Assembly: GCF_000949135.2 (NCBI RefSeq)
Contig: NZ_JTAN02000010.1
Coordinates: 124,001 to 188,000, forward strand
DNA from: Burkholderia sp. USMB20
GTDB taxonomy: Bacteria; Pseudomonadota; Gammaproteobacteria; Burkholderiales; Burkholderiaceae
Length of the DNA stretch: 64,000 nucleotides
Reading direction: 5' to 3'
Below, piece by piece: positions 1,736-3,669 of the stretch. The first letter of the stretch is position 1; each line of letters opens with the position of its first letter. The translations under genes were made by a program, and so were the position numbers. The notes under the pieces were generated by a model that had not been told where the DNA came from, did no database searches, and saw nothing but the letters and a program-made list of their open reading frames with translations.

Positions 1736-2149
1736 TCAGCCGAACGCGGCGGGCGGCCCCTTGAATTCCAGCATGTTCCCTTCGGGATCGAACAGATAGA
1801 TCGACGGCCCGTAGCCGCCGGCGCCGTAGCGATCGGCGGGGGCGCCGGGGCGCGCGCCATGCGCGGCGAAATGCTCGATCAGCGCGTCGGGGTCGAACGG
1901 CTCGACGCGCAGGCACAGATGGTCGAGGTTGCGGCCGGTGCCGGGCGGTCCGCTGTCGGGACGATCGATCGGGCCGCCGACCGACAGCAGGTCGATCAGC
2001 GCGTCGCCGGCGCGCAACTGCACGAGGCCCAGGTCGGGCTGTTCCTTCTCCACGTGGCAGCCGACGGCATCGCAGTAAAAGCGCGTCATCGCAGCCATGT
2101 CGGTCACGCGCAGCACGACGTGATCGATCGCGCGGATGGTCGGTTTCAT
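1736..2149 (-). CDS. VOC-family (glyoxalase/bleomycin-resistance fold) protein
   Basis: I start the protein at the ATG at 2147-2149 (137 residues). The frame can be extended upstream, but those residues are Arg-rich and unlike the family. The protein opens with IRAIDHVVLRVTDM and has the second half-motif LDHLCLRV and the end YLFDPEGNMLEFKG. His10 and the Glu near the end are the expected metal ligands of the two beta-alpha-beta-beta-beta modules. VOC proteins include glyoxalases, dioxygenases and drug-binding proteins, so the substrate cannot be named. It converges with yaeQ. Confidence 0.85.
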   Translation of the reverse strand: MKPTIRAIDHVVLRVTDMAAMTRFYCDAVGCHVEKEQPDLGLVQLRAGDALIDLLSVGGPIDRPDSGPPGTGRNLDHLCLRVEPFDPDALIEHFAAHGARPGAPADRYGAGGYGPSIYLFDPEGNMLEFKGPPAAFG

Positions 2150-2233
2150 GAGCGGGGCACTCCTTCGGATGGCGTGCACCGAGTGTAGACCGCGCCGGCG
2201 ACGGATGCCGCAATGCTGCACGATCGACGGACG

Positions 2234-2301
2234 AAAAAAAGCCCGTTCACGCAGAGCGGAACGGGCTTAATCCATATCAGGAGGAGACATGGAGGAGACA
2301 G
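2234..2301 (-). ncRNA. Candidate trans-acting small RNA with two anti-Shine-Dalgarno words
   Basis: Read on the minus strand, a consensus-like promoter (2307-2335) would start a transcript near 2300. It runs about 65-70 nt to a textbook terminator. The terminator has an 8-bp stem (2259-2266 with 2241-2248) and a 10-base loop, followed by seven T (2240-2234). The 5' part carries the word TGTCTCCTCC twice in a row, one base apart (complements of 2291-2300 and 2280-2289). Each copy is complementary to a strong ribosome-binding site. A single-stranded C/U-rich seed plus a U-tailed terminator is the general design of Hfq-dependent RNAs that block translation. It lies between the VOC gene and ada, on the opposite strand to ada. 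Identity with any named RNA is not claimed. Confidence 0.6.
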
Positions 2302-2306
2302 TTCCA

Positions 2307-2335
2307 ACTATACACACGGCGATGGTGCGTTGCAA
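2307..2335 (-). promoter_or_regulatory. Sigma-70 promoter of the candidate small RNA
   Basis: On the minus strand, a TTGCAA box (2335-2330) is followed after exactly 17 bp by TATAGT (2312-2307). The predicted start lies six to eight bases further, just before the repeated TCTCCTCC words. Confidence 0.6.
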
Positions 2336-2577
2336 TATTCCGAGTGTAAAAAATGGTCAGGACGGCGATTGGTCGCAGCCGCACTGCAGCAAAATGGTGA
2401 CGCGACGATGACGAAAGCGGTGCCGGAGCAGCGCTTTGCGCGGTGTTTCGTCCGATTGATCGATTGCGATGTGCCCCCGGTTTCGCCGGTGCGAATCACA
2501 GAGCAAGATTCAGGGCGCGACGGCCCATGCCGATGTCTAGAGTAGGCACCATCTACACTAGAGAGTGCGAGGTTCAG

Positions 2578-3669
2578 ATGAAAACCGCCTATCCGACCGA
2601 CGATGCCCGCTGGGGCGCCGTGACCGCCCGCGACCCGCATGCGGACGGCGCGTTCTTCTACGCCGTGCGCACGACCGGTGTGTTCTGCCGCCCGAGCTGC
2701 GCGTCGCGGCTGCCGCGGCGCGAGCATGTGTCCTTCTTTGCCAGTCCAGCCGACGCGCGCGCGGCCGGTTTTCGTCCGTGCAAGCGCTGCCAGCCGGAAG
2801 GGCTGCCGCGCGAGCTCGAGATCGTCAATCGTGCCTGCGCGGTGCTCGACGCGCATGCGGAGCGGCTCACGCTGCAGCAACTGAGCGACGCCGTGCACGT
2901 AAGCCCGTTCCACCTGCAGCGGCTGTTCAAGCGCGTGGTCGGCGTGTCGCCGCGGCAGTACCAGGCCGCGCAGCGCGGCGCCGCCTTGCGCGAGGCGCTG
3001 CAAAGCGGGCAGCCGGTCACGCAGGCGGCCGTCGACGCGGGTTTCAACTCGCCGTCGCGACTTTACGCATCGGTGCCGCGCGAACTGGGCATGGCGCCGT
3101 CCGCGTTCCGTCGCCAGGGCGCCGGCCTGCGGATCGACTACGCGACCGCGTCGACGCCGCTCGGCACGGTGCTCGTCGCCGCGACCGAACAGGGCATCTG
3201 CCGGATCGCGTTCGGCGACGAGCCGGCGTCGCTCGTCGGCGAACTGACGGATGCGTTCGCGCGTGCGGAACTGGTCGAATCGCCGTCGCGGCTCGCGCCG
3301 TTCGTCGCGCAGATCCGCGCCTACCTCGACGGCACGCGGCACGCGTTCGACCTGCCGCTCGACATCGCGCCGACCGCGTTCCAGCAGCGCGTCTGGGAAG
3401 CGCTGACGCACATCCCGTACGGCGAAACGCGCAGCTACTCGGAGATCGCCGAGGCACTGGGCGCGCCGCGTGCGGTGCGGGCCGTCGCATCGGCCTGCGC
3501 GTCGAACCCGGTCGCGCTCGCGATCCCGTGCCACCGTGTCGTGCAGAAGGGCGGCGCGCTCGCCGGGTATCGCTGGGGCGTGCGCCGCAAGGCGACGCTG
3601 CTCGCGTCCGAGGCGCGCCATGCGCACGACGATGAAACCGAAGCCGTTGCGGAGGGCAACGCAGTTTGA
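2578..3669 (+). CDS. ada: Bifunctional methylated-DNA repair protein and transcription activator Ada
   Basis: I start at the ATG at 2578 (MKTAYPTDDARWGAV, 363 residues), behind a GAGG site; upstream in-frame codons do not look like Ada. The N-terminal domain has the four zinc cysteines (Cys37, Cys41, Cys68, Cys71). Cys37 corresponds to the one that takes a methyl group from phosphotriesters and switches Ada on. An AraC-type helix-turn-helix follows (about 85-180). The C-terminal methyltransferase has the active site IPCHRVV with Cys318, which repairs O6-methylguanine. All key residues are present. The last bases overlap the start of alkA, so both are probably translated from one alkylation-induced mRNA. 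Confidence 0.95.
   Translation: MKTAYPTDDARWGAVTARDPHADGAFFYAVRTTGVFCRPSCASRLPRREHVSFFASPADARAAGFRPCKRCQPEGLPRELEIVNRACAVLDAHAERLTLQQLSDAVHVSPFHLQRLFKRVVGVSPRQYQAAQRGAALREALQSGQPVTQAAVDAGFNSPSRLYASVPRELGMAPSAFRRQGAGLRIDYATASTPLGTVLVAATEQGICRIAFGDEPASLVGELTDAFARAELVESPSRLAPFVAQIRAYLDGTRHAFDLPLDIAPTAFQQRVWEALTHIPYGETRSYSEIAEALGAPRAVRAVASACASNPVALAIPCHRVVQKGGALAGYRWGVRRKATLLASEARHAHDDETEAVAEGNAV

Follow-up and report, generated by a model that had tools for sequence, protein, structure and literature searches.

The window, by which we mean the whole stretch of 64,000 nucleotides from Burkholderia sp. USMB20 that was analysed, contains a small RNA gene on the minus strand, situated between a glyoxalase/VOC-fold gene and the divergently oriented ada (Table 1). 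An Rfam scan of the whole window assigned this gene over its full length to RF02278 (Betaproteobacteria toxic sRNA) with 75.8 bits at a threshold of 50, so that the RNA is of a kind already known. The transcript is predicted to comprise ~67 nt, running from 2300 to 2234, and its promoter has the form TTGCAA-17 bp-TATAGT (9/12 matches). The RNA starts with TGTCTCCTCC A TGTCTCCTCC, a word that occurs exactly twice in the 64 kb compared to a mean of 0.07 in 100 dinucleotide shuffles, none of which contained two copies. An earlier note on this DNA had proposed a free-standing small RNA with this promoter, an exact tandem 10-mer and a U-run, all of which we found on the minus strand between 2335 and 2234, and the published expression of the family agrees with a free-standing RNA. 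Of the terminator proposed there, the seven U residues stood, but the 8-bp stem gave way on folding to 10 bp and a further 3 bp past a bulge. A consensus terminator scan did not return the terminator of this RNA, which is visible in the folding and in the Rfam alignment.

Table 1 Features of the RF02278 locus and its flanking genes, with positions in the window.
Feature	Position	Strand	Basis
RF02278 small RNA (ncS05 type)	2233..2300	-	cmscan 75.8 bits, model 1-64 of 64
-35 hexamer TTGCAA	2330..2335	-	promoter scan
-10 hexamer TATAGT	2307..2312	-	promoter scan
First anti-SD word TGTCTCCTCC (RNA 5' end)	2291..2300	-	first 7 nt unpaired on folding
Second anti-SD word TGTCTCCTCC	2280..2289	-	TGTC in stem, TCCTCC in loop on folding
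5' hairpin, 8 bp, 7-nt loop UCCUCCU	2271..2293	-	folding and two-sided stem changes
Terminator hairpin, 10 bp + 3 bp past bulge	2239..2268	-	folding and Rfam alignment
Terminator U-run, 7 U	2234..2240	-	sequence
Proximal PhaR-like palindrome ATATTGCAACGCACCAT, -35 box within	2322..2338	-	3/14 mismatches
Distal PhaR-like palindrome TTGCTGCAGTGCGGCTG	2376..2392	-	2 mismatches
Glyoxalase/VOC-fold gene, downstream neighbour	1736..2149	-	Pfam PF00903, 5.4e-15
ada, divergent neighbour (Ada zinc-binding, AraC-type HTH and methyltransferase domains)	2578..3669	+	Pfam PF02805, PF12833, PF01035

The traits of RF02278, i.e., two hairpins, a CU-rich unpaired 5' end and loop, and an own conserved intergenic promoter, are all present here. 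The gene, whose place the earlier note found explained by neither neighbour, is not without explanation: judging from gene order and length, it is almost certainly the ortholog of ncS05 of B. cenocepacia. In strain J2315, for which four RF02278 copies have been published, ncS05 is a 67-nt RNA on the complement strand within a reverse, reverse, forward gene arrangement (PMC4603805). The order of the glyoxalase/VOC gene, the RNA and ada in the window is the same, with BCAL0436/0437 being compared by strand order alone. Both RNAs also share the two hairpins, the CU-rich unpaired stretches and the folding energy (-30.9 kcal/mol here and -30.3 as published; PMC5688073); ncS05 belongs to another Burkholderia genome, and the comparison covered its published length, gene order and fold. 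The transcript sought for this gene is on record for the ortholog, a B. cenocepacia RNA, but not for the USMB20 genome: a transcription start has been published for the ortholog or relatives and a short transcript reported for ncS05 (PMC4603805, PMC5688073). The reported level of ncS05 rises 3.5-fold in biofilm, 3.9-fold upon starvation and 6.9-fold in glucose medium, in which ncS03 and ncS27 rise 8.0- and 4.3-fold, respectively. RF02278 RNAs are also up in biofilm and starvation, and RNAs outside the family increase in glucose medium as well (ncS06 3.6, ncS35 3.5 and ncS25 2.1 fold; PMC5688073).

Several relatives have been characterized further. Overexpression of ncS27 is reported to attenuate growth, and ncS27 affects carbon-source use (PMC5688073). 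It shares the 5' word and the CU-rich loop with the window RNA but differs in its hairpin stem, its processed 92-nt transcript and its genomic place. In a transposon screen of B. cenocepacia H111 in two host models, ncS03 and ncS27 were among the genes whose loss was favoured (PMC12013268). S17 of Bordetella pertussis, whose 5' end closely matches the RF02278 RNA bdhR1, directly represses a 5'UTR target, as supported by compensatory mutations. S17 is Hfq-dependent, and pairing with ribosome-binding sites is predicted for both its Site 1 (5' end) and its Site 2 (loop); most of the repression comes from the 5' site, and a further loop possibly contributes. In contrast to the RNA of the window, S17 is released from a 190-nt precursor by RNase E and is higher in the Bvg+ mode, and an unidentified repressor has been postulated (PMC11722255). 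Anti-hemB (RF02837) and NmsRb (RF02877) are, as judged from their alignments, also short RNAs with a CU-rich word ahead of the terminator, and both were rejected as identities of the window RNA with 25.5 bits against 49.5 and 22.8 bits against 52, respectively. Pseudomon-1/ErsA, ar14, mmgR and the other Rfam families in the scan all remained under their own thresholds.

None of 200 shuffles was as stable as the two hairpins into which the RNA folds (z -8.25). The 5' hairpin (2293-2271) includes the last 3 nt of the first TGTCTCCTCC, and its 8 bp, missed by the earlier note, make the leader structured rather than linear. A reading of the two tandem words as equal seeds was dropped as well: the first word forms the free 5' end and the second is divided between stem and loop of the hairpin. 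Several paralogs have a shorter second word or lack it. More precisely, 9 nt of the second word are kept in ncS03 and 7 nt in ncS62, it is altered in ncS27, and it is absent from two paralogs scoring 42 and 32 bits, one of which also has an altered 5' word. The 5' word is common to the ncS03, ncS05, ncS27 and ncS62 types, with a few copies having C as the first base, and is the sole constant word among the main paralogs. GTCTCCTCC was invariant in 31 distinct 5' halves, which had been collected with a pattern demanding GTCTCCTCC. In the weak 32-bit paralog (L242, L243) the 5' word reads TGACACCTCC and the first hairpin is shortened, and this copy is perhaps a diverged or decaying member.

Among 14 different hairpins, 17 stem cells carry two-sided changes and 88% of the cells are paired; none of 500 shuffles reached either value. 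Two other measures of covariation on these 14 hairpins stayed within the range of shuffles, the pairs with two-sided change being matched in 183/500 and the further pair types in 211/500. The inner two pairs of the stem are broken in 7 and 4 of the 14 sequences. Family members differ in both arms of the stem, so the perfect match between the two 10-mers is in part a consequence of stem pairing. From the comparison of words among paralogs and the stem statistics, the constant features are the 5' word and the hairpin, the CU-rich loop being common and not universal.

A pattern scan with a 32-nt core returned at least 120 loci in named genomes, and 80 loci among the matches listed belong to Burkholderia, Paraburkholderia, Caballeronia, Trinickia, Pararobbsia and Pandoraea. 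In 111 of the 120 core-scan loci listed (at least 120 in all), ada lies upstream and opposite. Five of the other nine carry the VOC and yaeQ genes, one carries only yaeQ, and the remaining three lack all four of the window's genes; several of the nine sit at locus ends, including one of these three. As a test independent of the core, we reached the loci through ada in 65 Burkholderia genomes, all of which have ada. Beside it, the exact core was found in 63/65 genomes, a single change in one, and none in L195 (genome G022, an incomplete stretch), and G022 has an equal-scoring copy on another contig. The RNA therefore adjoins ada in 64/65 genomes of the genus, with promoter and words kept, so that the loss in close relatives named by the earlier note as a refutation was not observed. 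Rfam copies were present in 65/65 of these genomes at 3 to 7 each (E 0.001 or better). Mean column identity over the 64 genus loci was 0.99 at -16 to -7 and 0.96 at -37 to -23; -100 to -54 (0.88) and -53 to -38 (0.84) were also well conserved, and values of 0.57 and 0.67 were obtained for -200 to -101 and +70 to +100, respectively. TATAGT was returned by the scan in 63/64 loci, and the 64th (L271) also reads TATAGT. Conservation of 100% within the core, and nearly so in the 64-locus identities, arises by construction because loci were selected via the 32-nt core. The 116-sequence profile discussed below was built from exact-core loci, and the loci reached through ada represent the unbiased test.

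With regard to possible targets, four genomes contain 66 occurrences of GGAGGAGACA with an ATG in the next 10 nt, and the reversed control contains none; the 66 include two antisense hits to a paralog, and three sites were counted twice for two ATGs. In genome G011, ACA follows GGAGGAG before ATG in 13/100 cases (14/101 including the ncS62 antisense) compared to 1/90 after GGAGGTG, as counted by eye (Fisher p 0.0012). The corresponding numbers in G002 are 14/90 after GGAGGAG and one among the 60 places listed of 67 for GGAGGTG. Causes other than the RNA could also account for a preference for ACA. Proteins were examined at 14 of the 30 fetched GGAGGAGACA places. They comprise three MFS transporters and a fourth, MFS-like protein (below NCBIfam cut-offs), a lactate-permease-family protein, an OmpW protein, a LysR regulator, a CoA-transferase, a fatty-acid-hydroxylase-family protein, one solute-binding protein and a possible second (below cut-off), and an indolepyruvate-oxidoreductase-like fragment (below cut-off). 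Two had no match, L361 in both libraries and L368 in NCBIfam only. Published target predictions for ncS03 and ncS05 point to organic-acid transport (PMC5688073). The window alone offers six places with at least 9 nt of seed complement, two of them being the gene's own antisense, and none is convincing. The earlier expectation of targets at ribosome sites gains from the excess of GGAGGAGACA before starts in the four genomes but not from the window itself. That the words are complementary to ribosome-binding sites holds true, and the relative S17 represses directly. The CU-rich words likely block the ribosome-binding sites of transporter and catabolic mRNAs.

Upstream of the RNA, a conserved block spans -37 to -23 in 116 unique multi-genus sequences (core-scan loci and the window). 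It is formed by T at -37, TTGC at -35 to -32 (97-100% per column), a purine at -31, CGC at -29 to -27 and CA at -24/-23, and extends past the needs of a -35 box. The consensus reported for PhaR of R. eutropha is YTKNTGCRNYGCANMAR, in which positions 1-4 and 7 from the centre are best conserved (PMC12849132), and that for PhbF of H. seropedicae is TG[N]TGC[N]3GCAA (PMC3206438). In the window, the corresponding sequences are TGCAACGCA at -34 and TGCAGTGCG at -88. Counted over the 14 positions at which the R. eutropha consensus is informative, the proximal site has 3 and the distal site 2 mismatches, with up to 3 being the limit used for PhaR sites in PMC12849132. TGCRNYGCR is located exactly at -34 in 108/118 sequences and anywhere in -42..-28 in 110/118, compared to 0.27% of base shuffles. 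The distal site, mostly limited to the genus, was found in 25/118 multi-genus sequences compared to 1.3% of shuffles.

Among the 64 genus loci of ncS05, the best-scoring site is the distal one (-92) in 57. Sites with at most 2 mismatches accompany ncS05 in 52/64, ncS03 in 15/15 and ncS27 in 14/14 loci, and among 60 permuted palindromes one reached the ncS03 count and none the other two. They are mostly absent from ncS62 (2/12) and the 42-bit paralog (0/12). The best-scoring match of ncS27 lies at -25 in 13/14 loci and probably falls inside its own transcript. Control rates at this threshold were 0.7% for base-shuffled promoters and 2.2% for random 105-bp windows from the 120 loci, the latter being too high because the promoter itself is part of these loci. 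The PhaR motif was chosen after the conserved block had been seen, and orthologs and paralogs are not independent. The loose pattern TTGCRNYGCRNNA showed no excess over the reversed control in four genomes; the motif alone is therefore not specific, and the case rests on conservation and position. In the same four genomes, strong phasin loci each have both a 0- and a 1-mismatch site upstream (4/4), and the stretch upstream of phaR has a 1-mismatch site in 3/3 cases, this being a presumed pha operon recognised by its PF05233 gene alone. Six weaker phasin-like loci (L287-L292) had no site at up to 2 mismatches. The conserved palindrome, which resembles a PhaR site and holds the -35 box, looks like a new aspect of this RNA. 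PhaR has 0 occurrences in the main texts of PMC5688073 and PMC11722255, and in the literature listings searched no paper linked PhaR with RF02278, although Sass 2019 (NcS27) or Kimelman 2012 may mention PhaR.

The upstream regions also share a second element. It reads GGGTTTTCCCTTAAA near the start of 12/12 ncS62-type copies (L217-L228), a similar stretch is seen near -50 in many ncS05 orthologs (multi-genus consensus -56 to -42), and GGGAAAATCC upstream of many ncS03 copies was grouped with it.

In family f4, the RNA was detected in 29/31 genomes, 25 of which have a single match. Within 220 bp upstream, a site with up to 2 mismatches is present in 22/30 loci and one with up to 3 in 28/30 (29 genomes, each another genus), compared to 8.4% and 31% of random stretches; 1/100 permuted motifs reached either count. 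A first scan over 110 bp had yielded a site with up to 2 mismatches in 2/29 loci only, and the stretch was widened after this result because S17 is cut from a 190-nt precursor. Loci scored were 29/30 in the earlier scans and 30 in the final one. In 22 of the 28 site-bearing loci, the site ends 9 bp ahead of a -10-like hexamer, and the window shows the same 9-bp spacing (site to 2322, -10 from 2312). In family f8, 11/27 loci have a site at up to 2 mismatches, reached by 1/100 permuted motifs, and 7/15 in a smaller set, reached by 0/60 permutations. The f8 loci scored were 21/30, then 15 (those with GTCTCCTCT before the word being excluded) and then 27, the others being without the search word.

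PhaR itself (PF07879) is encoded in 36/38 genomes, i.e., 31 of f4 and 7 of f8 picked for their site-bearing copies. The two f4 genomes G109 and G125 are the only ones of their family without PhaR and without the RNA, and 29/31 have both (Fisher p 0.002). Since both genomes are small (0.8 and 1.7 Mb), shared genome reduction may be the cause of both losses. The f8 genomes G096, G101, G078, G075, G088, G082 and G090 contain 10-19 RF02278 matches each. Tandem runs were observed, with a spacing of ~185 bp at G087:C1 961093-961529 and with six listed copies in 16 kb of G078:C113. In an f8 variant (L297, L298, L303, L308, L317, L324), GTCTCCTCT is followed by ATGTCTCCTCC just downstream of a TATA-like box, which is the tandem-word layout again with the first word changed.

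Taken together, the locus encodes an ncS05-type double-hairpin RNA that probably has anti-SD action on transporter and catabolic mRNAs and whose promoter would probably be repressed by PhaR and released by PHB. The free 5' word, aided by the loop word and probably by Hfq, would pair with ribosome-binding sites and lower the translation of transporters and catabolic genes. Judging from the conserved DNA, PhaR may occupy the palindrome containing the -35 box and thereby repress the promoter. Under carbon excess, PHB granules would form and draw PhaR away, the promoter would open, and the released RNA would lower further uptake and catabolism. It is the conserved PhaR-like site at the promoter that leads us to infer PHB accumulation as the switch. 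Many RF02278 RNAs in the examined Burkholderiales families may well be an arm of the PHB-granule sensor PhaR that shuts nutrient uptake, as far as their upstream sequences tell.

In an alternative that we consider rather unlikely, the RNA would still block ribosome sites, but its palindrome would serve a different regulator from PhaR or its promoter would mainly follow growth phase. Short GC palindromes are bound by many regulators, and the proximal site of the window shows 3 differences from the R. eutropha consensus. Moreover, the published induction spans several stresses and is common to RNAs outside RF02278, and the authors call the cause of RF02278 RNA accumulation in Burkholderia unknown (PMC5688073). 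However, conservation falls largely on the positions published for PhaR (1-4 and 7 from the centre), the same genomes carry this motif ahead of phasin genes and within their presumed pha operon, and PhaR and the RNA are either both present or both absent in 31/31 f4 genomes (29 with both, 2 with neither). An RNA acting as a broad Shine-Dalgarno decoy, i.e., a free copy of the 16S tail CCUCC that causes a general drop in translation and hence toxicity in E. coli, appears improbable. Kimelman is said to have reported in 2012 that RF02278 RNAs inhibit growth when expressed in E. coli. The family owes its name to toxicity on cloning in E. coli (PMC4603805, PMC5688073), and the hairpin loop contains CCUCC, given as the anti-SD core in a published abstract. 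A decoy is at odds with the unimpaired exponential growth of E. coli BL21 upon S17S overexpression, with the compensatory mutations supporting repression of a target by S17 (PMC11722255), and with the enrichment before starts of an ACA extension past the SD core.

The constant company of ada, seen in 111/120 listed loci (at least 120 in all) and in 64/65 genus genomes, could also indicate a cis element acting on this gene by antisense pairing or promoter interference. We rejected this very improbable reading since the transcripts diverge, with no overlap needed, and paralogs with the same 5' word are located elsewhere in the same genomes; moreover, none of the four window genes is found near the RNA in 3 of the 120 listed loci (at least 120 in all), one of these three lying at a locus end. 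Hardly credible is a small protein on the plus strand started by AGGAGGAGACATG, with the repeats being its ribosome site and first codons. Although a 40-aa ORF with a MEET start at 2289 lies behind AGGAGGAGAC, the ORF varies from 7 to 96 aa across 184 loci, for which it was rejected, and conservation tracks the minus-strand promoter and the RNA stem.

A PhaR-like site within the promoter makes the question of the regulator directly testable. Control by PhaR would fit the rise in glucose medium and the predicted transporter and catabolic targets. It would supply a regulator of the Burkholderia copies and perhaps also the repressor postulated for S17. In Sinorhizobium meliloti, PhaR/AniA likewise represses a small RNA linked to PHB storage, MmgR (RF00519; PMC12542648), so that such wiring may have arisen more than once; the RNA of the window is not an RF00519 member (15.6 bits against 41 needed). 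If true, one circuit would join carbon storage to translational control.
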